23,949 nucleotides of DNA from a virus (IMGVR_UViG_3300035190_000655:1-23949); one strand, 5' to 3'; positions 4,536 to 23,161 are shown, numbered from the stretch's first letter. Made by a program: numbers and translations. The notes: generated from the sequence alone by a model not told the origin.

Positions 4536-5420
4536 ATGTTATCTTTTAAGCAATTTATTTTAGAACAAAAACTTCGACAAGGATTGGATAATTTAAGAGA
4601 TTTAAACCACGAAAAATTGGGAAATCTCCTTAAAGGTAAAGTTTTGTCTGGTGTTTCTACCAGAAAAACTGATGGTGCTGCCGGCGAAGTTGGGTATGAC
4701 GAAGAAGGTCCATATACGCGCTCGGCAAATTCAGATAAAATAAGAAATGCTGGAGATTATTCTGCATATACTAGAAACAAAAGGGGGGCAGACGCCGATA
4801 CTTCTGTTTCTTCTCAATATGACGACCTACATCACAGGTTAGTCAATAACCCAAAATTAATGTCTTATTTGAAGTCCAGACACGAATCAGGACTTTCTTC
4901 TTCTATTAAAGGGGAGTTTTTCCTTAGGGGAATTGGACAAAAAACCGATAAGGGTATCAAATTCGTAAATACTTCTTATAACCCAAATTCTATGGGTAAG
5001 TCTGGAATGTTTATTCTTCATCACCAACTCCCAGAAAATTCCACACATAAACCAGAAGATATTGAAAAGTTGGGCGATCACCACGTGACGTTCGATCACG
5101 ATAAATCAGAAGGAAATTCTTTTGATATAGACGTTTCTGATGAAAAGAAAGCTCATTCTGAAATTAATCCAGAATTATTAAAGTCAAGAAAATCTGCAGA
5201 TAAAGAAGCAAAAGAACAAGAAAAGATAAAGCTGAACTCTATCAAATCTTCTTTGGAAAGTAAACTATCGCAACACGCTTCTGGCGTAAAACCCAGACAT
5301 TGGGAAGTAGAAGGAGAATCGGAAGGGGACGTATTTCACACACCAAACGGAAGAATAAAAATTCAATCTTCTGCTTTTAAAAGTTTCAAACAAGATCAAA
5401 AAAATCAAAGGAATCAATAA
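4536..5420 (+). CDS. Ligase-like nucleotidyltransferase (DUF6267-like) with N-terminal capsid-targeting-like peptide
   Basis: This 294-residue protein begins MLSFKQFILEQ, like the T4 internal-protein capsid-targeting peptide (MKTYQEFIAE), with a gp21-type I-x-E cleavage point after residue 10. It then has K44-T-D-G47 (KTDGAAGEVGYDEEG), matching motif I (K-x-D-G) of the covalent nucleotidyltransferase/ligase superfamily. A downstream arginine (YTRSANS) and KGEFFL (125-130) would be the later acidic motif. I recall this arrangement in cyanophage proteins grouped as DUF6267. The C-terminal third (about 215-294) is charged, probably helical and lysine-rich. It is the first gene after a late promoter and lies 1 nt from the next gene. 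The proposed role is a packaged enzyme or nucleotide-binding protein, with K44 the adenylylation candidate. Substrate unknown. Confidence 0.6.
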   Translation: MLSFKQFILEQKLRQGLDNLRDLNHEKLGNLLKGKVLSGVSTRKTDGAAGEVGYDEEGPYTRSANSDKIRNAGDYSAYTRNKRGADADTSVSSQYDDLHHRLVNNPKLMSYLKSRHESGLSSSIKGEFFLRGIGQKTDKGIKFVNTSYNPNSMGKSGMFILHHQLPENSTHKPEDIEKLGDHHVTFDHDKSEGNSFDIDVSDEKKAHSEINPELLKSRKSADKEAKEQEKIKLNSIKSSLESKLSQHASGVKPRHWEVEGESEGDVFHTPNGRIKIQSSAFKSFKQDQKNQRNQ

Positions 5421-5421
5421 A

Positions 5422-7323
5422 ATGATTAGATTTAAAAAATTCATTTCTGAAGGTGGAAATCTACCATATCCAGTAGACGCAAATGACGCTTCTAAAGGTA
5501 CAAGAACTTCTGATAGTGTAGATACTAATAATAGGGATACCCATTCTGGGCACTTTCATGATTTTTTTAGTTCTATAGACCAAGGCGTACAAAAGCAACA
5601 CGGTCATTCTTTATTTGGAAATTCTTTAAAAACCGGGTCTGCTTATTCCGGTTCTGCTAGACCTTATATGGATAAGAATATTCCAACAGAAAAGTTTACA
5701 AAAATTAAACCAAAACTCGGCGATTTTGACGTTCAAATTCCAGAACAACATAGAGAAAAATTGAACCAGTTTTTAAAACCCGGAGATACTCATGGGAGAT
5801 TTAAGGTTTTACACACAAGAACTACAGGGAACCAAACTCATGCAGTGGTACAACATTTAGATACGGGTAAACACCACCAAATAGATTTTGAACCCGTAGA
5901 ATATGACGAAAAATCTCAAGAGCCAACTAAATTCGAGCAATTGGCTCATTCTAGTCATATTGGAGATATGGAGCATGGTATAAAAGGTCGCTTTCATAAA
6001 GAATTAATCCAATCAGCATTTCACGCCCATTCTAAACCTTCAATTATTTCTTCAATGAAAGGGCGAGGTAAAGCGAAAACTGAAACCCAAGAAGAAGCAG
6101 AAGTGCCGCCACACACGTTTTCCGTGGATAAAGGGTTACGCCAAAAATGGGAAAATATTGGAACCCATGAAAGTGGAAAGCCAATAGTGAGGGAAATACC
6201 CTCAAAAGGAGCTTCTTACACTAAAGACATTCCAACAATTTATAAATCAATGTTTAATAGAGAAGGTTCCGAACAGGATCATGAAGATATTGGTTCTTTT
6301 GGTGGGGTTATAGATCACATAAAAAAACATCTTCCTCAAGAACATCACGGAAAAATTATAAAGACTTTTGCTAATAAATTGTGGCACCATTCTTCTCAGT
6401 CTTTGGGTAATGATCCAGAAATGGATAAAACGGCAAAAGACGCTGCTTGGAATCATTTAAAATTACATTTTCCTGGAGAATCTTCTGCTATAGAATCAGA
6501 AGTAAATCAAAAGAGAAAAGAATATTATGACCCAAATAATGCAAAATCCAAATTTAAAAAGAACACCGCTCCAACAGACGAAGATTCTGGACTAAAAGAA
6601 TCGGAAGAAGAACACCATCATGTGGTATTTGCTGCTGGGAGGTTTACTGGACCTACAGAGGAACATCATAAACTTTTGAATAGAGTTTTTGATACTCCAG
6701 CACATTCTCATAGAGTTTACGTTATGGGTCCGGAGTCAAAAGAAAAAACTACAGACAAAGATCCATTAACGGTTGAAGAAAAAATATCTCAATTAAAGAA
6801 ATTATATCCAGAAAAGGCTGATTCTTTTGTTGCTGGGACTGATAGACACACAAAGAACCCATTAAAGGCGTTAGTCCATACTTGGCATTCTTTAAAGAAA
6901 CCAGGTAGAAAAGTTCATATAACAGTTCATGCGGGAGAAGGGGAAGAAGGCGTTAAATCTAAATCTTCTGCTGGTGGTTCTATAGATAGTTATAAGGGAT
7001 TAGTTGATAAATATAATAAATCTTCTTTTCCAGAATCGGTGGACGAACAAGGGAATAAAAGAGGTGGTGATCTCCGAATGGATTACGAGTCTGCCAAATT
7101 TATTGGAAACCCAAGAGGGAAAACTTCTGGTTCCGTAATGAGACAAACCGCAAGATCTTTAGATCATAATAATCCAGAACACGTTGCACAATTCAAAAAA
7201 TTATTACATCCAAACTTTTCTCACGAAGACGCGAAAGGTTTGATGCAAAAAATTAAAGAAAGAAGCAAACCGTTAAAAGAATGTTCTACTACGTTTGAAA
7301 AGGTTAAGTGGATATTAGGTTAA
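5422..7323 (+). CDS. Bidomain nucleotidyltransferase (Pol-beta-like plus HIGH-type cytidylyltransferase-like) with capsid-targeting-like peptide
   Basis: This 633-residue protein opens with MIRFKKFISEG, again of the capsid-targeting type with an I-S-E/G cleavage candidate. Residues about 65-160 look like a minimal Pol-beta nucleotidyltransferase: YSGSAR (G77, S78), then KLGDFDVQI (D101, D103), then HHQIDFE (D155) as the third acidic residue. Residues about 398-580 look like a HIGH-superfamily nucleotidyltransferase: FAAGRFTGPTEEHHKLL (T412-x-x-H415, a variant of T-x-G-H) and SGSVMRQ (569-575), close to the usual S-G-T-K-M-R but with the lysine replaced. The middle is histidine- and lysine-rich. 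It follows the ligase-like gene by 1 nt and the kinase-like gene follows by 1 nt. The biochemical target is unknown, and the missing lysine leaves catalysis by the second domain uncertain. Confidence 0.6.
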   Translation: MIRFKKFISEGGNLPYPVDANDASKGTRTSDSVDTNNRDTHSGHFHDFFSSIDQGVQKQHGHSLFGNSLKTGSAYSGSARPYMDKNIPTEKFTKIKPKLGDFDVQIPEQHREKLNQFLKPGDTHGRFKVLHTRTTGNQTHAVVQHLDTGKHHQIDFEPVEYDEKSQEPTKFEQLAHSSHIGDMEHGIKGRFHKELIQSAFHAHSKPSIISSMKGRGKAKTETQEEAEVPPHTFSVDKGLRQKWENIGTHESGKPIVREIPSKGASYTKDIPTIYKSMFNREGSEQDHEDIGSFGGVIDHIKKHLPQEHHGKIIKTFANKLWHHSSQSLGNDPEMDKTAKDAAWNHLKLHFPGESSAIESEVNQKRKEYYDPNNAKSKFKKNTAPTDEDSGLKESEEEHHHVVFAAGRFTGPTEEHHKLLNRVFDTPAHSHRVYVMGPESKEKTTDKDPLTVEEKISQLKKLYPEKADSFVAGTDRHTKNPLKALVHTWHSLKKPGRKVHITVHAGEGEEGVKSKSSAGGSIDSYKGLVDKYNKSSFPESVDEQGNKRGGDLRMDYESAKFIGNPRGKTSGSVMRQTARSLDHNNPEHVAQFKKLLHPNFSHEDAKGLMQKIKERSKPLKECSTTFEKVKWILG

Positions 7324-11574: not shown

Positions 11575-12201
11575 ATGAATTATTTGAAACATTACGAAAA
11601 ATTAATTTCTTCCAAAAAATTAATTGGTAGGAAAAAGGGCGGAACAGAATATTTTGAAAAGCATCATATTATTCCAAAATGGTTGGGTGGAAATAATTCA
11701 AAAGATAATTTGGTATTATTGACAGCAAGAGAACATTTTGTTGCTCATTGGTTATTATGGAAACACTATAAAACCAGACCGAGTGCTTTAGCTTTCCACA
11801 AAATGACCAAAAGCAAAAATAAAAGTCAAGAAAGAAATTTCAATTCAAAACAATTTGAAATTGCCAGAAAAGCCTTTTCAGAATCTCAAACTGGCTGTTT
11901 GAACCATATGTGGAATAAACCTTCACCAAACAGAGGAAAGCCTTCAAAATTAAAAGGAATTTCAAGACCAGATCATTCTAAATTGATGGAGGGAGAAAAT
12001 AATCCTTCTAAAAGAAATGATAGTAGAGCAGCGATATCAAGAGCTTTATCAGGAAAGAAAAAAAGTGATTCTCATATAGAAATTATGAGAATCAATATAT
12101 TAAACGCGCCAAAGAAAACCTGCGAATTTTGCGGAAAACATATTGATATTAGGAATTATTCAAGATGGCATGGCGATAATTGTAAAAATAAGAATAATTA
12201 G
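11575..12201 (+). CDS. HNH homing endonuclease (NUMOD3-type, C-terminal zinc finger)
   Basis: A 208-residue protein. The HNH core is at about 28-65: EKHHIIPKWLGG, then DNLVLLTAREHFVAHWLLWKHY. It is followed by a NUMOD3-like DNA-binding segment (GENNPSKRND, RAAISRALSGKKKSDSH) and a C-terminal zinc-finger-like CEFCGKH...HGDNC motif. The core is closely similar to two other HNH proteins in this window (15027-16049 and 20938-21546), including the MNYLK start shared with the latter. It begins 3 nt after the endolysin stop, an insertion typical of a free-standing homing endonuclease. Homing activity is inferred from family and position. Confidence 0.85.
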   Translation: MNYLKHYEKLISSKKLIGRKKGGTEYFEKHHIIPKWLGGNNSKDNLVLLTAREHFVAHWLLWKHYKTRPSALAFHKMTKSKNKSQERNFNSKQFEIARKAFSESQTGCLNHMWNKPSPNRGKPSKLKGISRPDHSKLMEGENNPSKRNDSRAAISRALSGKKKSDSHIEIMRINILNAPKKTCEFCGKHIDIRNYSRWHGDNCKNKNN

Positions 12202-14432: not shown

Positions 14433-14890
14433 AACATCTTAATTCTTGGAAAGAATTTGTTTCTACTCCAAGAAAAGAGTTAAATGGTTTTCCTATTTGT
14501 CCGTTTGCTAAAAATGCGGAAATTCTGTTTGATATAATTGAATCAGAAGAAATGTTACTGATACAAGTTTTGAAAAGAGAAAGAAGTTCAAAACAACTGT
14601 TTATGTTTGTTGATATTAATAATGTATTAACTTATACGATAGCAAATTATTTAATTGATTTTTATAATAGCATTTCTAGAGATTATCAATATTTTGTAGA
14701 TGATGTTAACAATCCGCAATTTATGAATAGCGTTAATACTAGCAATAGTAAATATCTCATAATAATAGGTCAAAGAAACGATATACTAAATCTCTCTAGA
14801 GAGAAATTGATGAAAACTGGATATTATAAATTCTTGGAAAAAAAATATTTGAAAAAAATAGGAGTAGATGTGGAGAAAATTAATGATTGA
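14417..14890 (+). CDS. Conserved T4-like phage protein downstream of primase
   Basis: A 157-residue protein whose start is probably TTG 14417, supported by GGAG 8 nt upstream inside the primase gene. GTG 14426 is an alternative. The N-terminal LNSWKEFVSTPRKELNGFPICPFAKNA is a landmark I recognise from marine T4-like phages: W-x-x-F-x-S-T-P-R-x-E-L-N-x-x-P-I-C-P-F-A. It is followed by an alpha/beta region. The function is unassigned. The C-P-F-A cysteines could be redox or metal ligands. Its TGA stop overlaps the start of the thyX remnant (ATGATTGA), so in the ancestor this gene and thyX were translationally coupled. Confidence 0.6.
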   Translation: MEKVLEHLNSWKEFVSTPRKELNGFPICPFAKNAEILFDIIESEEMLLIQVLKRERSSKQLFMFVDINNVLTYTIANYLIDFYNSISRDYQYFVDDVNNPQFMNSVNTSNSKYLIIIGQRNDILNLSREKLMKTGYYKFLEKKYLKKIGVDVEKIND

Positions 14891-14987
14891 AGCAAAAATT
14901 ATTAAAGATAGTATTTCACCAGAAGGTGTTAGGGTTACGACTTTCGAACTGAAATATCCAAGGTTTATTTTAGCAGAGTTTACTTAA
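14883..14987 (+). pseudogene. thyX: 5' remnant of a second thyX gene (34 codons)
   Basis: ATG 14883 opens a 34-codon frame ending at TAA 14985-14987: it contains IIKDSISPEGVRVTTFELKY followed by PRFILAEFT. The complete ThyX beginning at 16042 has IICDSISPLGVRLTTFELRY followed by CRFILSEFN. Over those 29 positions 22 are identical by my count. The remnant stops exactly where the intact protein continues into THRVFSRNSASSR, the ThyX signature. Its start overlaps the preceding gene's stop, the usual coupling for a real gene. It is the head of a displaced thyX, cut off next to an HNH endonuclease gene. Confidence 0.85.
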
Positions 14988-14999
14988 AACTTCTGTCAT

Positions 15000-15007
15000 T
15001 ATAAATA
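15000..15007 (+). promoter_or_regulatory. Late promoter TATAAATA with a strong ribosome-binding site for the HNH gene
   Basis: A perfect T4 late octamer 20 nt before ATG 15027. It is followed by AAGGAGGT (15014-15021), a near-perfect Shine-Dalgarno sequence. The HNH gene therefore carries its own late expression signals inside the break between the thyX remnant and intact thyX, like the late promoters of T4 intron endonucleases. Confidence 0.75.
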
Positions 15008-15026
15008 ATGGATAAGGAGGTCCGTT

Positions 15027-16049
15027 ATGTTTAAAGAAAACAAATATAAAAAAATCTATTTTTCAATTGTAGAAAATTCAAAGAATAAAACTTATGATGG
15101 ATATACTGAAAATCATCATATAATACCAAAATGTTTAGGGGGTTCAGATGATAAAGAAAACCTGATAAAACTCTCTGCTAGAGAGCATTTCATTTGCCAT
15201 CTTCTTTTAACTAAAATGTCTGACGATGATAAATTAAAATATGCTTTTATATGTATGCGAGTTTCTAATGGAAATCAAGATAGAAATTATAAAATAAATT
15301 CTTGGGTATATAGTTTATTAAAAGAGTACAATTCCCAATTATGTAAAGAAAAATTTACTGGTAGAGTTTGTCCAAACGAAAATAAAGAAAAATATTATGA
15401 TCCCTTGACGGGAATTTCAAAATTTTATGAAAAGGGTGCTCAACCCGATAATTGGATTAAAGGTTCTTCTCCAGAAACTAAGAAAAAGTTTTCTGGTATG
15501 CATAAAAATAATGTTTATTACCATAACCCAAAAACTGGAAAAGTTATCTCCATAAAAAATTTTGATACCCCTCCGGTGGGATATGTTAAAGGAAACCCAA
15601 ATGCTAATAAAGGAAATGATAAGAATGTAGGTAAAATTAGTTGTTATTGTAATATAACTGGTATTGTTTTAAAAATTGATAAAAATAATATTCCTGAGAA
15701 TTATACTATAGGAACACCTTTTGTTTGGATCAATAATGGAGTAGATTCAAAAATGATAAACAAAATAACTGATTGTTTACCAGATGGGTGGAAGTTTGGT
15801 AGATTAAACCTAAAAACTTCATTGACAATTTTAAACAAAACTGATAAAATGATAGAAACTCCTCTAGGTATTTTTAATAGTCCGAGAAGATTTTGTGAAA
15901 AATATAACTGTGATATTAGTTTTTTTGATAATTTAAATACGAAAATAAGAAAAAATAGAAAATCATTATATTTTTTAGTTTCAGAATTAGAAATGATTGG
16001 GTATAATTTTAATAAAACAAAAAAAGAGAATGGGTTTAAATATGTCTAA
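15027..16049 (+). CDS. HNH homing endonuclease with tandem DNA-binding-like modules, beside thyX
   Basis: A 340-residue protein. The HNH core (about 28-65) reads ENHHIIPKCLGGSDDKENL, then LSAREHFICHLLLTKM. Residues about 110-265 hold four loose repeats ending in a P-x-x-W/Y-x-x-G pattern: YYDPLTGISKF...PDNWIKG, YYHNPKTGKVISI...PPVGYVKG, CYCNITGIVLKI...PENYTIG and a last one ending LPDGWKFGRL. These probably contact DNA. The C-terminal TPLGIFNSPRRFCEKY matches TPFGIFTCIYDFAHYC in the HNH protein at 18240-19199. It lies between a thyX 5' remnant and complete thyX, has its own late promoter, and its stop overlaps the thyX ATG by 8 nt. The likely homing target is thyX. Confidence 0.85.
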   Translation: MFKENKYKKIYFSIVENSKNKTYDGYTENHHIIPKCLGGSDDKENLIKLSAREHFICHLLLTKMSDDDKLKYAFICMRVSNGNQDRNYKINSWVYSLLKEYNSQLCKEKFTGRVCPNENKEKYYDPLTGISKFYEKGAQPDNWIKGSSPETKKKFSGMHKNNVYYHNPKTGKVISIKNFDTPPVGYVKGNPNANKGNDKNVGKISCYCNITGIVLKIDKNNIPENYTIGTPFVWINNGVDSKMINKITDCLPDGWKFGRLNLKTSLTILNKTDKMIETPLGIFNSPRRFCEKYNCDISFFDNLNTKIRKNRKSLYFLVSELEMIGYNFNKTKKENGFKYV

Positions 16050-16884
16050 AAAGAATGATAATGGCGGAATTAGTGCTAAAATTATTTGCGATAGTATCTC
16101 TCCTTTAGGGGTTAGGTTAACAACTTTCGAGCTTCGTTATTGTAGGTTCATTTTATCTGAGTTCAACACACATAGAGTATTTTCTAGAAATTCCGCTTCA
16201 TCCAGAGCAATCCCAGTTAAGAAAATGATTGCTGATGTTATTTCTGACCCAGTTATTCCAGTTTTTTGGGGTAAGAATCAACCCGGGATGCAAGCAAAAG
16301 AAGAACTATCTGGCGGGGAACTGTCAATCGCTAAATTTCTTTGGAGTTTTGCTAGATACCCTGCTTGTTTAGTTGCTTATGCTTTAAATAAAATTGGATT
16401 GCATAAGCAAATTTCTAATAGAATTATTGAACCTTGGATGTGGACTAAGACTATTGTAACATCTACTGAATGGGATAATTTCTTTGAATTAAGAATGCAT
16501 AGCGATGCTCAACCAGAAATTTATGCCCTTACTTGTGAAATGTATGGAGAATATCTTAATTCAGTCCCTACAAAATTGAATTATGGGGATTGGCATTTAC
16601 CTTACGTTACAGATAACGAAATTTGTAATAATCTTATGGTTGATTGTATTAAAATGTCGGGAGCAAGATGTGCTAGGGTGAGTTATCTAACTCATGATGG
16701 AAAAAAACCATCAAAAGATAAAGATTTTAAATTATACGATGACTTGGTTGGTTCTGTACCAATTCATGCTTCTCCAACAGAACATCAAGCAACTCCAACA
16801 AAAGATAAAGAATATCATAAAAACTTTAGAGGTTGGAAACAACATAGGGCAGATATTGAGTATAAATTTAATAAAGGTGAATAA
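16042..16884 (+). CDS. thyX: Flavin-dependent thymidylate synthase ThyX
   Basis: A 280-residue ThyX, which makes dTMP from dUMP using FAD, NADPH and methylenetetrahydrofolate. It shows FILSEFNTHRVFSRNSASSR (from residue 36), the family signature with the nucleotide-binding H-R and S-x-R residues. Further landmarks are FFELRMHSDAQPEI, SGARCARVSYLTHDG and a C-terminal HASPTEHQATP...NFRGWKQHR, as in cyanophage ThyX. I chose ATG 16042 rather than upstream in-frame codons because it matches the start of the remnant copy upstream and overlaps the HNH stop by 8 nt. The homologous remnant at 14883 implies this copy arrived by recombination with the HNH gene. It works with MazG and NrdAB in nucleotide supply. 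Confidence 0.93.
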   Translation: MSKKNDNGGISAKIICDSISPLGVRLTTFELRYCRFILSEFNTHRVFSRNSASSRAIPVKKMIADVISDPVIPVFWGKNQPGMQAKEELSGGELSIAKFLWSFARYPACLVAYALNKIGLHKQISNRIIEPWMWTKTIVTSTEWDNFFELRMHSDAQPEIYALTCEMYGEYLNSVPTKLNYGDWHLPYVTDNEICNNLMVDCIKMSGARCARVSYLTHDGKKPSKDKDFKLYDDLVGSVPIHASPTEHQATPTKDKEYHKNFRGWKQHRADIEYKFNKGE

Positions 16885-17827: not shown

Positions 17828-18358
17828 ATGGAAGAATATCTTGGTATCAAAACAAATCCAGAAAGAGATAATTTATTTGATGAATTAGGAATCAAAAGGT
17901 TAAAAGAATCATATATGACAGAAACGGAAATTTCTCCTCAACAAAGGTTTGCTTTTGTAGCAAAGTCATTTGGTTCTAATATTGAACACGCTCAACGATT
18001 ATATGATTATGCTTCTAAACATTGGTTAAGTTTTGCTACTCCAATTCTTTCTTATGGAAAATCTAAAAATGGACTACCAATTTCTTGTTTTGCTGAAGGA
18101 ACTTTAGTTAATACTAAAAATGGATTACTTCCGATAGAACTTCTTAATGTTGGAGATGAAGTTCTATCGGACGATGGAACATATAACCCGATAGAAAAGA
18201 TTAAATCGGAAGATAGTCAAGATTTATACGAATTAGAATTTATGGGAGAAGTTTTTGTTGTGACAGGTAATCATTTAATTCAGACCAGAGAGGATGGTTG
18301 GGTTCGGGTAGATGAACTTGATTTAGATTATCATAATATTGTTCGATTAAAGGATTAG
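17828..18358 (+). CDS. nrdA: NrdA N-terminal extein fused to an N-terminal split intein
   Basis: A 176-residue protein. Residues 1-86 are the start of class Ia ribonucleotide reductase large subunit (RFAFVAKSFG...RLYDYASKHWLSFATPILS...NGLPIS). The chain then turns at C87 into an intein N-fragment of 90 residues: CFAEGTLVNTKNGLLPIELL is block A, and GEVFVVTGNHLIQTRE is block B with the T-x-x-H motif. The stop follows the intein fragment. The matching C-intein and C-extein are encoded at 19268-20935. Trans-splicing would join ...LPIS to CFLSYM..., restoring the redox-active cysteine equivalent to E. coli C225. The extein is short: 86 residues precede this cysteine, against 224 in E. coli, so the ATP-cone domain is absent. 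Confidence 0.9.
   Translation: MEEYLGIKTNPERDNLFDELGIKRLKESYMTETEISPQQRFAFVAKSFGSNIEHAQRLYDYASKHWLSFATPILSYGKSKNGLPISCFAEGTLVNTKNGLLPIELLNVGDEVLSDDGTYNPIEKIKSEDSQDLYELEFMGEVFVVTGNHLIQTREDGWVRVDELDLDYHNIVRLKD
18086..18355 (+). mobile_element. Split intein, N-terminal half (90 residues)
   Basis: It begins at the TGT codon 18086 (C87), the splicing nucleophile, and contains blocks A and B (VGDEVLSDDG; TGNH). With the 36-residue C-half the intein totals 126 residues, which is HINT-domain size without an internal endonuclease. The endonuclease function seems to be carried by the separate HNH gene in the break. Confidence 0.88.
18130..18171. repeat. Perfect 14-bp inverted repeat inside the intein N-half
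   Basis: TCCGATAGAACTTC (18130-18143) and GAAGTTCTATCGGA (18158-18171) are exact reverse complements separated by 14 nt. They lie in the codons for block A of the intein, and also 69 nt past the stop of the antisense HNH gene. No T-run follows on either strand, so a simple terminator is unlikely. It may stabilise transcript ends or act on translation. Confidence 0.75.
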
Positions 18359-19199
18359 TTTTTTCAATAAAAAAGAATCCCAATTCTCTTGGAGTTTTTC
18401 CTATTATATTTTTGTTGAGTTTAGGGTTCTTTTTTGTGTGGTGAGAATTGAATGGTTTATCAGGGTTTTTACAATAATGAGCAAAATCGTAAATACAAGT
18501 AAAAATTCCAAAAGGAGTAATATAAATTCCGTCTTTAATTCTTTTTAAATATTTTCCTTCTTTTCTTGTATCATCATAATATTTTTGTATAGATTTTGCT
18601 AAATTTTTGTTATGAGTTTCTGGACGATTTTTTGAATATGAAGACATTTTTGTAGTGTCTGATTTTTTACTTCCAGAACAAGCGATGCTTTGTTTTATTC
18701 TATTTTCTTCTATAGAATAGAAATCGGTTTTGAGTTTTGATAGTTTTTGTCTAGTTTCTGGTAATACGTTTGGGGTTCCATCTTCTTTATATCCTCTGGT
18801 ATAAACCCCCTTTCTCTTATCTGAAAGGTCTTGCTTTATTCTAGATATTAGTTTAGAATTGATTGATTTTAATGATAAATGTTTTGTGTGTTTTTGATTG
18901 ATTGTTCTTAGTATTGATAATGTTTGAGAAACAGTATTATATGCTTTCCATAATAAGATATGAGCAATAATATGTTGACGATAAGTTAAGATTGCCTTAT
19001 TCCAAGGATATTTTTTAAACGAGTTATATTCTGGAAACATATCTTTAGATTTTGGTAAAATGTGATGATTTTCTACATAAACTAATTCTTCCTGGGTTTT
19101 TGTGGCATTTATTTCTGTGCATTTGTTGATGAAGTTATAATACTTTAATAAGTAGTGGTAGTTGTTTGATTTTGAATTCAAAATTGATAAGATTTCCAA
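18240..19199 (-). CDS. HNH homing endonuclease gene inserted antisense in the nrdA/intein break
   Basis: A 319-residue protein on the minus strand. The start is TTG 19199, supported by AGAGGAAT about 9 nt upstream on that strand. The HNH core (about 42-82) reads VENHHILPKSKDMF, then KAILTYRQHIIAHILLWKAY. A C-terminal segment TPFGIFTCIYDFAHYC resembles the TPLGIFNSPRRFCEKY element of the HNH protein at 15027-16049. The spacing in its HNH core is wider than in the other three HNH proteins, so it is the most divergent. It fills the gap between the two nrdA/intein genes, and its last 39 codons overlap the end of the intein N-half convergently by 119 nt. It probably cuts the intein-free nrdA allele. 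Confidence 0.88.
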   Translation of the reverse strand: MEILSILNSKSNNYHYLLKYYNFINKCTEINATKTQEELVYVENHHILPKSKDMFPEYNSFKKYPWNKAILTYRQHIIAHILLWKAYNTVSQTLSILRTINQKHTKHLSLKSINSKLISRIKQDLSDKRKGVYTRGYKEDGTPNVLPETRQKLSKLKTDFYSIEENRIKQSIACSGSKKSDTTKMSSYSKNRPETHNKNLAKSIQKYYDDTRKEGKYLKRIKDGIYITPFGIFTCIYDFAHYCKNPDKPFNSHHTKKNPKLNKNIIGKTPRELGFFFIEKTNPLIEQYYDNLNQVHLPEPNHPLWSELNDYLSQQKLLP

Positions 19200-19214
19200 A
19201 GTTTAATTCCTCTA

Positions 19215-19222
19215 AATAAATA
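19215..19222 (+). promoter_or_regulatory. Late-type octamer AATAAATA before the nrdA 3' gene
   Basis: A NATAAATA octamer 45 nt before ATG 19268, in the 68-nt divergent gap between the antisense HNH gene and the nrdA C-gene. It would give the C-half its own transcript, needed because the HNH gene separates it from the nrdA 5' gene. A/T-rich context lowers confidence. Confidence 0.45.
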
Positions 19223-19238
19223 TATTTAGTTGTTTTTT

Positions 19239-19246
19239 AATTTATA
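19239..19246 (-). promoter_or_regulatory. Possible minus-strand late promoter for the HNH gene
   Basis: On the minus strand TATAAATT, seven of eight bases of the T4 late octamer, lies 39 nt upstream of the TTG start of the HNH gene. It is the mirror partner of the plus-strand octamer in the same gap. Confidence 0.35.
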
Positions 19247-19267
19247 TAGTAGATAAAAGGTAAAAAA

Positions 19268-19375
19268 ATGAATTTTAGTTTAAAAAAACTTGATATTTCT
19301 AAAAAAGTTTATGATATTCAAGTAAAAAATAATCCAACATTTACGGTTGGAAGGAGTAAACTTGTTGTCCATAAT
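19268..19375 (+). mobile_element. Split intein, C-terminal half (36 residues)
   Basis: Residues 1-36 of the downstream protein, MNFSLKKLDISKKVYDIQVK followed by NNPTFTVGRSKLVVHN, carry block F (VYDIQVKNNPTFTVG) and block G (VVHN). The penultimate His and terminal Asn needed for cyclisation are present, and a +1 Cys follows (TGC 19376-19378). All residues expected for active trans-splicing are there. Confidence 0.9.
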
Positions 19376-20935
19376 TGCTTCCTTTCTTACATGCAAGACT
19401 CTTCTTCTGGTCTTGTAGATACCCTTTCTGAAGTTAATACCCTCTCAATGCTTGGCGGTGGTGTTGGTATTGGTGTTGATATTCGCTCCGCAGACGATAA
19501 AAGCGTTGGAGTTATGCCCCACCTAAAAATCTATGACGCTTCTTGTTTAGCATATCGTCAAGGTAAGACTCGTCGCGGTTCTTATGCTGCTTATCTAAGA
19601 ATAGATCATCCAGACGTTATGATGTTTCTTGAAATGCGTAAGCCCACCGGAGACCAAAACGTAAAGTGTCTTAACCTCCATCATGGTATTATCCTTACTG
19701 ATAAGTTCATGAATATTATTGAGCAATCTATGATTGACCCGGACTTTGATGATTCTTGGAACCTTTATGATACCCATAATCCAGACAAAATAAAAGAAAC
19801 TGTTTCTGCAAAAGAACTTTGGCAAAAGATTATTGAATTAAGAATGCAAACTGGCGAACCATATATATTGTTTATTGATACTGCTAACGAACAAATGCCA
19901 GAGTTCCAAAAGAAGCTTGGTTTAAGTATAAAACAATCCAACATCTGCAGCGAGATTTTACTTCCAACTGACCACGAAAGAACTGCGGTTTGTTGTTTGT
20001 CTTCGGTTAATCTAAGATATTATGATGATTTTAAAGATAATTATCAATTCTTTCGTGACGTTGCGGAAATGTTGGATAATGTACTAACAACTTTTATTGA
20101 TAATGCTCCAGAAGCAATTTCAAGAGCAAAATATTCAGCAATGAGAGAAAGAGCAATTGGTATTGGAACGCTAGGATTTCATACTTATCTGCAACAAAAT
20201 AGTATTCCTTTTGAATGTGCTATGGCAAAATCCAGGAATATGCAGATATTTAAGAATATTAGAACTCATTTAGATCAAGCTAATAAAGAATTAGGGTTTG
20301 AAAGAGGAAATTGTCCGGATTTTGAAGAAGGGGTTATTGGAGAAAAACTATATTATCAAAGGTTTAGTCATTTAATGGCGATTGCTCCTACTGCTTCTAC
20401 TTCTATTATTATGGGTAATATTTCCCCTTCTATTGAACCTATTAGAGCAAATGCTTATCGTCAAGATACTATGTCCGGTTCTCATTTGAACAAGAATCAC
20501 GTACTCGACGAGTTAATTAAAGAAAAGATAAAGGGTAACTCCAAACTAGACTACGATTCTATTTGGTTGGATATTATTTCTAATGACGGTTCTATACAAC
20601 ATATGGATATGTTTACTGATGAAGAAAAAGAAGTATTCAAAACTGCGATGGAAATTGATCAACGTTGGGTAGTGGATTTTGCTGCGGATAGACAAAAGTT
20701 TATTGACCAAACTCAGTCGTTGAACTTATTTTTCAGACCAGACGCGCATATTAAATACCTTCATGCGGTTCATTTTAAAGCTTGGAAAGAAAAATTACCA
20801 ACGTTATATTATTGCCGTTCTGATAGCTTAAAGAAATCTGATAAAGTCTCTAAACAAATTGAAAGAAATATTATTGAAGAAATCAACCTTCAGGATATTA
20901 TTTCTGGTGAAGAATGTTTGGCTTGTAGTTCATAA
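19268..20935 (+). CDS. nrdA: C-terminal split intein fused to NrdA C-terminal extein (catalytic bulk)
   Basis: A 555-residue protein: the intein C-half is residues 1-36, and the C-extein is residues 37-555 starting CFLSYMQDSSSG. It holds the RNR catalytic core. C37 is the C225-equivalent, NICSE (225-229) carries the thiyl-radical cysteine C227 and glutamate E229, and VCCLSSVNL (241-249) gives the C462-type partner. LYYCRS (Y514, Y515) is the radical-transfer tyrosine pair. The terminal CLAC (C550, C553) is the shuttle dithiol. Spliced to the 86-residue N-extein it gives NrdA of about 605 residues, against 761 in E. coli, with no ATP cone. The enzyme reduces ribonucleoside diphosphates with NrdB. 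An HNH gene starts 2 nt after the stop. Confidence 0.95.
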   Translation: MNFSLKKLDISKKVYDIQVKNNPTFTVGRSKLVVHNCFLSYMQDSSSGLVDTLSEVNTLSMLGGGVGIGVDIRSADDKSVGVMPHLKIYDASCLAYRQGKTRRGSYAAYLRIDHPDVMMFLEMRKPTGDQNVKCLNLHHGIILTDKFMNIIEQSMIDPDFDDSWNLYDTHNPDKIKETVSAKELWQKIIELRMQTGEPYILFIDTANEQMPEFQKKLGLSIKQSNICSEILLPTDHERTAVCCLSSVNLRYYDDFKDNYQFFRDVAEMLDNVLTTFIDNAPEAISRAKYSAMRERAIGIGTLGFHTYLQQNSIPFECAMAKSRNMQIFKNIRTHLDQANKELGFERGNCPDFEEGVIGEKLYYQRFSHLMAIAPTASTSIIMGNISPSIEPIRANAYRQDTMSGSHLNKNHVLDELIKEKIKGNSKLDYDSIWLDIISNDGSIQHMDMFTDEEKEVFKTAMEIDQRWVVDFAADRQKFIDQTQSLNLFFRPDAHIKYLHAVHFKAWKEKLPTLYYCRSDSLKKSDKVSKQIERNIIEEINLQDIISGEECLACSS

Positions 20936-20937
20936 AA

Positions 20938-21546
20938 ATGAATTATTTAAAAATATATGACAAATTATGTTTTGTTGGCAAGTTGGAAAGAACTTGTGTA
21001 GAAGTTTTTGAGACACATCACATAGTACCAAGATGTTTAGGTGGAACTGATTCTTCGGAAAATTTAACAAAATTAACTCCAAGGGAACATTTTATCGCTC
21101 ATTTACCATTAACAAAAATTTATAAAAATAATCATAAAATAATGTTTGCTTTTAATATGATGTTATTGGAAAACGAAAATCATAAAAGACATATTCCGAG
21201 TTCAAAATATTATGAAATTTCTAGAAAAAATATTTCTCAATGTATGAGAGAAAATAATCCTATGAAAAATGAAAAAAACATAGAAAAGATGAGAAATAGT
21301 AGAAAAAGAAAATTTGTTGAAGGATTAATAAAACCGAATGTTCCTACAATTAATGAACGAAAAAGAATTTCTGAAAGAATGAAAGGGCAAAATAACCCTT
21401 GCAAAAGATATCCAGAAACTCACAATTTCAAAAAAGGAACTTTTTGGTGGACTGATGGTATTCTTAATATAAGAAGTTGTGCGTCGCCTGGAGAAAATTT
21501 TAAAAGAGGAATAACTAAAAAGAATATGATTAAAAACATAAGGTAA
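20938..21546 (+). CDS. HNH homing endonuclease between nrdA and nrdB
   Basis: A 202-residue protein. The HNH core reads FETHHIVPRCLGGTDSSENL, then LTPREHFIAHLPLTKIY, closely similar to the proteins at 11575 and 15027. NUMOD3-like segments follow (MRENNPMKNEKN; RISERMKGQNNPCKRYPETH). A C-terminal WWTDGILNIRSCASPGENFK module is like the repeats of the 15027 protein. It begins 2 nt after the nrdA stop and ends 6 nt before nrdB. Its position matches mobE, the HNH gene found between or within nrdA and nrdB in T4-like phages. The probable target is nrdA or nrdB of related phages. Confidence 0.87.
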   Translation: MNYLKIYDKLCFVGKLERTCVEVFETHHIVPRCLGGTDSSENLTKLTPREHFIAHLPLTKIYKNNHKIMFAFNMMLLENENHKRHIPSSKYYEISRKNISQCMRENNPMKNEKNIEKMRNSRKRKFVEGLIKPNVPTINERKRISERMKGQNNPCKRYPETHNFKKGTFWWTDGILNIRSCASPGENFKRGITKKNMIKNIR

Positions 21547-21552
21547 AATAAT

Positions 21553-22527
21553 ATGGTAAAAAGAAAGTTAAAATTAACAGATACTAGAACAACATTCAAA
21601 CCGTTTACTCATCCAGAATTTTATGAGTATTGGTTGAATCACGAACGTATGCATTGGATTCACACTGAAGTAGAATTAGTTCAAGACATTAAAGACTGGC
21701 AAAATAATGTAACAGAAAAAGAAAAGAGTTTTTTAACTAATATTTTTAGGTTTTTTACTCAATCCGATATTGATGTTGCTGGAGGGTATGTAAAAAATTA
21801 TTTACCTATTCTTCAACAACCAGAACTTAGGATGATGTTGTTAAGTTTTGCTGCTAGGGAAGCAGTTCATATTGCCGCCTATTCTCATTTAATTGAAACT
21901 CTAGGGATGCCGGAATCCACATATACAGAATTTTTAAAGTATGATGCTATGAAAAATAAGCATGATTATATTGAATCTTTTGTTGGTTTAGATACTAAAC
22001 GTATTGCTCAACAAATTGCTTTATTTTCTGCATTTACTGAAGGTATGCAATTATTCAGTTCTTTTGTAATGCTTTTGAATTTCCCAAGAAGGGGTAAAAT
22101 GAAAGGAATGGGTCAGATTATTTCTTGGTCTATCCTTGACGAACAACTTCATTGCGAAGCAATGATAAAAGTATTTCGTATTTTTATCGAAGAAAATCGG
22201 GACATTTGGAACGACGAACTTAAATCAGAATTATACTCAATAGCTGAAAAAATGGTAGAGTTAGAAGACGCTTTCATTGATATTTGTTATGATATGGGTG
22301 AATGCGAAGGGTTGAATATTGAAGATTTAAAGAAATACATCCGATATATTTGTGATCGTAGACTTATTTCTATGGGGCTGAAAGGTGTTTTTAAAGTTAA
22401 AAAGAATCCGCTTCCTTGGGTAGACGAAATGATTTCTGCTCCACAGCACACAAATTTCTTTGAAAATAGAGCTACTGCCTACGCAAAGGGTGCTTTAAGC
22501 GGTGGTTGGAAAGATGTATGGGCTTGA
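21553..22527 (+). CDS. nrdB: Ribonucleotide reductase class Ia small subunit NrdB
   Basis: A 324-residue radical-generating subunit. The diiron ligands are D72 (FTQSD), E103 and H106 (REAVH), E163 (FTEG), and E197 and H200 (DEQLH). The spacings from D72 to E103 and from E163 to E197 are the same as in E. coli NrdB (84 to 115 and 204 to 238). The radical tyrosine is present as Y110 (EAVHIAAY), so this is a tyrosyl-radical class Ia enzyme rather than a Tyr-free subclass. The gene is intact, with no intein or intron. It partners the trans-spliced NrdA. The C-terminus GGWKDVWA would dock into NrdA. Confidence 0.95.
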   Translation: MVKRKLKLTDTRTTFKPFTHPEFYEYWLNHERMHWIHTEVELVQDIKDWQNNVTEKEKSFLTNIFRFFTQSDIDVAGGYVKNYLPILQQPELRMMLLSFAAREAVHIAAYSHLIETLGMPESTYTEFLKYDAMKNKHDYIESFVGLDTKRIAQQIALFSAFTEGMQLFSSFVMLLNFPRRGKMKGMGQIISWSILDEQLHCEAMIKVFRIFIEENRDIWNDELKSELYSIAEKMVELEDAFIDICYDMGECEGLNIEDLKKYIRYICDRRLISMGLKGVFKVKKNPLPWVDEMISAPQHTNFFENRATAYAKGALSGGWKDVWA

Positions 22528-22758: not shown

Positions 22759-22817
22759 TCCCATGTCTTGGTTGTATGATAAAGAACCTTTCGAAGATCC
22801 CCAGGACTACTGGGGAT
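22750..22817 (+). promoter_or_regulatory. Palindrome and hairpin around the GIY-YIG start
   Basis: TGGGATTAATCCCA (22750-22763) is a perfect 14-nt palindrome whose last base is the A of the GIY-YIG ATG. A second perfect stem, ATCCCCAG (22797-22804) with CTGGGGAT (22810-22817) and a 5-nt loop, follows in the coding region. Both could limit translation initiation. A palindrome without a loop folds poorly as a hairpin, so a dimeric DNA-binding site is an alternative. Confidence 0.4.
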
Positions 22818-23161
22818 TTGTTTATATAATAACCAATATTTCTAATAATAAAAAATATATTGGAAAAAAACAATTTTACTTTAAAAAATACAAAACAGTT
22901 AAAGGAAAGCGAAAGGGTTATCTAGCAGAATCTGATTGGAAATGTTATTTCGGTTCTTCAGAAACTTTAAAAGAAGAAGTTTCTGGTTGTGGAGAAGACA
23001 ATTTTAAAAGAGAAATATTGAAATTGTGTAAATCTAAATCTGAATGTACTTACTGGGAAACCAAATACCAATTCGAGTTCGATGTTCTTTTGAAACCAGA
23101 AGAATATTACAATGAATGGATCATGGCAAGAGTGAGAAGATCACACTTAATTAAAAAATAG
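22763..23161 (+). CDS. GIY-YIG family endonuclease
   Basis: A 132-residue protein with the GIY-YIG module: GFVYIITNIS (18-27) and KYIGKKQF (31-38) form the core pair. KCYFGSSETLKEEV follows, and ECTYWETKYQFEFDVLL supplies the catalytic-type glutamate E99. Its form (WLYD...F, YGSS-like, F-K-R-E-I-L, C...E-x-K-Y-Q-F-E) matches a small GIY-YIG protein common in T4-like cyanophages and differs from T4 Seg and DenA proteins in detail. It starts 5 nt after the zinc-ribbon stop. Homing or host-DNA degradation are both possible. Confidence 0.8.
   Translation: MSWLYDKEPFEDPQDYWGFVYIITNISNNKKYIGKKQFYFKKYKTVKGKRKGYLAESDWKCYFGSSETLKEEVSGCGEDNFKREILKLCKSKSECTYWETKYQFEFDVLLKPEEYYNEWIMARVRRSHLIKK

Follow-up and report, generated by a model that had tools for sequence, protein, structure and literature searches.

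Genes fractured by split inteins, with a free-standing endonuclease gene in the break, were reportedly described from Global Ocean Sampling data by Dassa et al. in 2009 (NAR 37:2560), where the endonucleases are said to form a Vsr-like family, a trait that is not needed for membership in this class. The 2009 study is cited here through three papers (PMC3653736, PMC10448857, PMC7090010), one of which (PMC3653736) names nrdA and nrdJ among the hosts. In Pseudomonas phage MIJ3, polB contains a split intein with the HNH homing endonuclease gene orf154 between its halves (PMC6892783). In Aeromonas phage Aeh1, mobE splits nrdA, whose two products make up an active enzyme without splicing (PMC2988022). 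Here we describe a related locus in a 23,949-base viral record from IMG/VR (IMGVR_UViG_3300035190_000655; the whole stretch is called the window below). The feature consists of three open reading frames (ORFs) within 17828-20935, in which nrdA is fractured into two plus-strand ORFs and an antisense HNH gene fills the break. With a probability of about 0.87, we read it as a mobile split-intein cassette just before the catalytic redox cysteine of a phage NrdA, which would trans-splice the protein and home as a unit by means of its HNH enzyme.

As in the 2009 loci, a conserved enzyme gene is broken by a split intein with an endonuclease gene in the break. An earlier note, made from this DNA sequence, had placed the locus in the fractured-gene class, and the free-standing endonuclease gene (phrog_655, 3.4e-21) between the intein halves bears this out. 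Different from the 2009 loci, the endonuclease is HNH-type and not Vsr-like, is antisense and has 119 nucleotides (nt) in common with the intein N-half (IntN), although the orientations of 2009 may include antisense ones. The locus resembles MIJ3 polB in having a split intein in a phage replication gene and an HNH gene between the halves, but host gene and intein are others, and the excerpt of PMC6892783 does not mention an antisense overlap for MIJ3. Because MIJ3 polB carries an HNH gene, an HNH instead of a Vsr-type enzyme in a split intein is not unusual in itself; the earlier note had named it as part of a combination that looked unusual.

The ORFs have the layout that had been proposed. 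The N-half ORF (17828-18358, plus strand, ATG start, 176 amino acids) joins 86 residues of NrdA (17828..18085) to 90 residues of IntN plus stop codon (18086..18358), and the C-half ORF (19268-20935, plus strand, ATG start, 555 amino acids) joins the 36-residue intein C-half (IntC, 19268..19375, ending VVHN) to 519 residues of NrdA (19376..20935). The HNH gene (19199-18240, minus strand, TTG start, 319 amino acids) overlaps the N-half ORF by 119 nt (18240..18358), and its last ~39 codons thus lie within the IntN coding sequence. HNH and IntC start divergently, with 68 nt between them (19200..19267) that contain a ribosome-binding site for each gene. IntN, antisense HNH and IntC make up a cassette of 1290 nt (18086..19375), as delimited by presence/absence comparison.

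Judged from the sequence, the locus has the complete set of residues that a class 1 split intein needs, and all of them are conserved. Cys1 (codon 18086-18088) is invariant in alignment A5 and in L205, block B (T60-G61-N62-H63) is invariant in A5, the penultimate His35-Asn36 pair is invariant in alignment A6, and all sequences have the +1 Cys. These residues are unchanged in every relative covering them, IntN is conserved in 7 lineages, and the halves stand on separate ORFs with one extein each. The proposed check against the Hint profile gave 37.3 bits for IntN with Hint_2 (curated cut-off 28.4), and IntC matched NCBIfam TIGR01443 (intein_Cterm) with 26.3 bits (cut-off 15.6). The IntN profile built from A5 matched known split inteins, with the gp41-1 intein 6qaz at E=1.9e-6 and further matches to 6riz, 6zgq and 8ubs; gp41-1, NrdHF and NrdJ-1 inteins were among the matches. 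IntN and IntC of the window are similar in size to these three split inteins but represent a separate sequence family and insertion site.

By tblastn, no match of this IntN was found in bacterial genomes, and no member of the IntN family was detected in isolated phages, where the best match had 42% identity over most of IntN; two of those matches that we inspected were contiguous inteins. Contiguous LAGLIDADG-type inteins occupy the same NrdA site, before the redox cysteine, in LR756511 (huge phage) and OP559178, an Enterococcus phage being involved. Their IntN parts are 42-47% identical to that of the window, but each is a single open frame enclosing an endonuclease-like domain, whereas the window intein is split with an antisense HNH gene. 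Weaker IntN matches in L184/L186 (~35%) turned out to be a different intein in a helicase-like gene. A group I intron at either break was rejected, as no Rfam family matched at gathering in the window or related loci; for the L010 break, no group I intron match was obtained even at E<=1.

Both exteins belong to one NrdA. Besides Hint_2, the N-half ORF matches Ribonuc_red_lgN (Pfam PF00317, 46 bits), an all-alpha domain without ATP cone, and the C-half ORF matches Ribonuc_red_lgC (PF02867, 360 bits). The single NCBIfam NrdA model NF006577 is divided between them, the N-half covering 12-97 and the C-half 90-603. The protein sequence of the N-extein is 100% identical to the intein-free allele L011. 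This NrdA is short, without room for an ATP cone, and 6dqw is the nearest solved structure by sequence. In agreement with the claim that the splice point is the redox-active cysteine, the first cysteine of the C-extein (19376-19378) aligns with the N-terminal redox cysteine of human RRM1 in PDB alignments (6dqw, 3hnc); presumably it corresponds to E. coli C225. SNICSEI, at the C439 position, is unbroken in the window NrdA.

The two pieces might instead act as a non-covalent complex, the intein pieces being relics. Aeh1 provides the precedent, as NrdA there is split yet active with no intron involved (PMC3653736, PMC2988022), and both are T-even-type phage nrdA genes broken by an HNH homing endonuclease. 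Splicing is, however, not reported for Aeh1 (PMC2988022), whereas the pieces in the window carry intein halves, whose splicing residues do not vary among divergent lineages, even those that have lost the HNH. Without splicing, the C-half would begin with 36 intein residues preceding the redox cysteine. We therefore regard a non-covalent enzyme as very improbable.

The HNH protein contains the motif HH45-46...P49...N67...H76...H80, whose residues are invariant in 5 lineages. Only homing/HNH families match it, with phrog_655 as the homing endonuclease family named above, and there was no match in Pfam. TTG is taken as the homologous start because the genes of relatives begin with ATG at the same alignment column. 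The ratio of nonsynonymous to synonymous substitution rates (dN/dS) is below 0.5 where computable, with dS near saturation, and by this measure the HNH gene is under purifying selection. Further relatives of the HNH gene (L097-L106) stand alone next to other phage genes and resemble it mainly in the N-terminal nuclease part.

The cassette is found without a single mismatch along its 1290 nt in three more IMG/VR metagenome contigs (L005, L006, L007), and the divergent lineages L009/L092, L010, L089/L090 and L091 show the same arrangement including antisense HNH and overlap. A misassembly or strain chimera, which the earlier note had named as a way for its claim to fail, might be suspected as all data are metagenome contigs. 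Since three further contigs match without mismatch, the cassette of the window is not a misassembly, and the repetition of the arrangement in independent lineages leaves this explanation a negligible probability.

The search for intein-free nrdA alleles, also suggested earlier, was successful. L011 is an exact empty site, in which window positions 18090 and 19375 are adjacent and the DNA upstream is 96% identical; L012-L016 are likewise empty at the insertion site of the window. One occupied contig (L006) and one empty contig (L013) come from a single metagenome. L008 represents a converted empty allele. Its cassette differs from that of the window at 3 positions in 1290 nt, and its nrdA flanks (4641-5234 and 6590-6900, about 600 nt upstream and 300 nt downstream) are 98-100% identical to the intein-free L013/L014 but only 45-88% identical to the window. 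The switch from L014-like to window-like sequence falls within 5234-5246 on the left and 6574-6590 on the right, corresponding to co-conversion of 13-24 nt and 26-41 nt. At the switch points the two strains have just 11 and 15 identical nt in common, so an assembler with k of at least 21 could not have built these joints. Comparison of these sequences shows that the entire cassette was transferred in one piece between nrdA alleles of ~80% identity, and that co-conversion extended only a very short way. The site thus displays presence/absence polymorphism together with a converted empty allele.

A wider spread is visible between NrdA clades, where identity reaches 53-63% for IntN but 18-32% for the N-extein and 34-40% for the C-extein. 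As the intein is far more alike than the exteins, the cassette has crossed clades at the same site. Alternatively, the HNH protein could be an inactive passenger and the cassette could spread through ordinary phage recombination, which is heavy in phages of this kind; L008 itself is mosaic at several other places. Against this stand the conversion tracts ending within 13-41 nt of both cassette ends, the conserved HNH residues and frame, and the presence of the cassette at exactly the same site in very divergent nrdA genes, where ordinary homology is short. We consider a passenger role unlikely, and favor homing by the HNH enzyme. Decayed stages exist as well. In L088 the split intein is retained beside an HNH remnant of only 71 residues, and L205/L218 retain it with an internal deletion that leaves the HNH ends. 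Persistence of the intein after loss of the endonuclease is as expected if NrdA needs splicing.

The inverted HNH gene overlapping the intein, to which the earlier note had pointed as unusual, is not peculiar to the window: five intact lineages, from two divergent NrdA clades, have the antisense overlap. Within it, the third codon position of IntN is the second position of HNH. The HNH tail could be non-functional there, its frame being open merely through conservation of the IntN protein, and indeed the IntN residues are most conserved in the overlap, and L088 and L205 retain the tail after loss of the catalytic core. Yet IntN codons for the same residue differ between lineages in 26% of cases inside the overlap versus 53% outside, about half as often (column test, p = 0.003; permutation, p = 0.004, or 0.0025 without L088). 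The HNH tail is 64% identical between lineages, compared with 35 +/- 2% expected when IntN residues are fixed and codons resampled, while the same frame outside the overlap gave 25% identity versus 23% expected. Moreover, the HNH frame is the sole antisense frame open in all six lineages (6/6), unlike the control frames, and, with the IntN residues as they are, it would be open by chance with a probability of just 5-13% per lineage. A non-functional tail is accordingly a rather poor explanation. The alignments show that the HNH end and the second half of IntN share DNA on opposite strands, with both frames apparently constrained.

In the cycle that we propose, the two NrdA polypeptides would be made separately, and their intein halves would associate and trans-splice. 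Cys1 would perform the N-S shift, the +1 Cys would take over the chain and Asn36 would cyclise, giving an NrdA of ~605 residues with the redox cysteine at the junction. The antisense HNH enzyme would cut intein-free nrdA at or near the insertion site, and repair would copy IntN, HNH gene and IntC as a single unit. The overlap may tie endonuclease to intein, as mutations there would tend to hurt both.

We infer splicing and DNA cleavage from conserved residues and the transfer pattern, and several points weigh against this interpretation. The presumed HNH cleavage site derives from a single conversion event. By sequence, the HNH protein found nothing credible in PDB, and its AlphaFold model (5-row alignment) reached a predicted local distance difference test score (pLDDT) of 51, too poor to use for a fold search. 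The overlap test covers six lineages with relatedness only partly controlled, so that shared ancestry or a DNA-level constraint may contribute, and the tail frame kept by the two lineages with decayed HNH fits recent decay but also IntN constraint.

A late-type promoter of the C-half, another suggestion of the earlier note, did not hold up. There is no exact TATAAATA on the plus strand at this place, and near-copies occur at chance level (114 copies with <=1 mismatch in the window vs 109 +/- 11 expected). Where a motif of this type is present, it faces the HNH gene: in the window TATAAATT is located at 19246-19239 on the minus strand, 39 nt before the HNH start, and L009 and L089 have exact TATAAATA on the minus strand, 20 and 31 nt upstream of the HNH start, respectively. 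In L010, no late-type motif precedes HNH. The C-half, which has a ribosome-binding site, is probably translated from nrdA read-through transcripts, and the HNH gene would be transcribed separately, perhaps late. Elsewhere in the window, the sole three exact copies of TATAAATA (4498, 15000 and 22538, plus strand) each lie 20-35 nt before an ORF start, and the exact motif is rarer on both strands than base composition predicts (3 vs about 9). Sigma-70 promoters were not enriched, with 12 found versus 11.8 in shuffles.

In some relatives NrdA is encoded by three genes with two split inteins, at the C225 and C439 sites (L008, 5001-9487; L092, 1-3931, with L009; L010, 2430-5978), the second break falling at a cysteine of the C439 type (SNIC/SNLC). 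The middle gene begins with an intein C-half, which matches intein_Cterm above cut-off, and ends with an intein N-half, which matches intein_Nterm at or near cut-off. The second intein of L009 is close to NrdJ-1 (5e-15). A sense HNH gene lies in the second break of L008 and L012, a sense ORF resembling a GIY-YIG nuclease (by eye only) in that of L009/L092, and no endonuclease in that of L010. The corresponding intein of L082 is contiguous. The second intein is inserted one codon later in L008, L012 and L082 (after the cysteine, +1 Ser) than in L009 and L010 (before it, +1 Cys), and the inteins at these neighboring positions are apparently homologous. In LR756511 (L175, 3363-7256), the huge-phage NrdA carries a contiguous full-length intein at each of these two sites. 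In L205, NrdA is broken once more at 5600-5760, where GEAPDA is followed by an unusual insert (QSEILFEDDSGNS...GDELKI) and a stop; this may be a further split element.

The window contains five homing-type nuclease genes in 12 kb around thyX, nrdA and nrdB, four HNH and one SegE-like GIY-YIG (11575-12201, 15027-16049, 18240-19199, 20938-21546 and 22763-23161). One of them, a free-standing HNH gene outside the cassette (20938-21546, plus strand; phrog_655, 2.7e-39), lies between nrdA and nrdB, the small subunit gene (21553..22527, plus strand; Pfam PF00268, 244.8 bits). This gene is intact in the window and in L006, whereas L005 (8111-8281) and L008 (9490-9660) have versions with an internal deletion. 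In the region 14801-16300, the HNH gene 15027-16049 precedes thyX. Upstream of this HNH gene is a truncated relic of the thyX 5' end with 96% identity to the uninterrupted allele L011; thyX after it has a different 5' end (about 61-72% identical to L011) and is then nearly identical. The HNH gene appears to be a homing gene that carried in a substitute 5' end for the gene it targets.

Altogether, the observation of the earlier note is confirmed and its interpretation partly supported. No literature report of an antisense endonuclease in a split intein or of natural three-piece splicing was found in a search that did not include the 2009 Dassa paper. The conserved antisense, dual-coded HNH organisation is apparently new; the antisense orientation as such may already be on record in 2009. 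The locus offers a natural system in which all stages of the homing cycle can be seen at a single site, namely empty, freshly converted and occupied alleles and alleles with a decayed endonuclease. The alleles compared here indicate a split intein and its endonuclease travelling as one unit, which had previously been assumed for fractured genes, and the overlap provides a testable reason for the two staying together. The two different split inteins in one NrdA of the relatives should be mutually orthogonal and thus useful for protein ligation. It is conceivable, though we advance this only tentatively, that the antisense dual-coded junction represents a distinct stable type of mobile split intein, in which endonuclease and intein are hard to separate because one DNA stretch encodes the endonuclease tail and the catalytic half of the intein. 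Expression from the opposite strand would uncouple the timing of the endonuclease from nrdA, and the NrdA of some relatives would be a three-gene, two-splice enzyme with two such elements.

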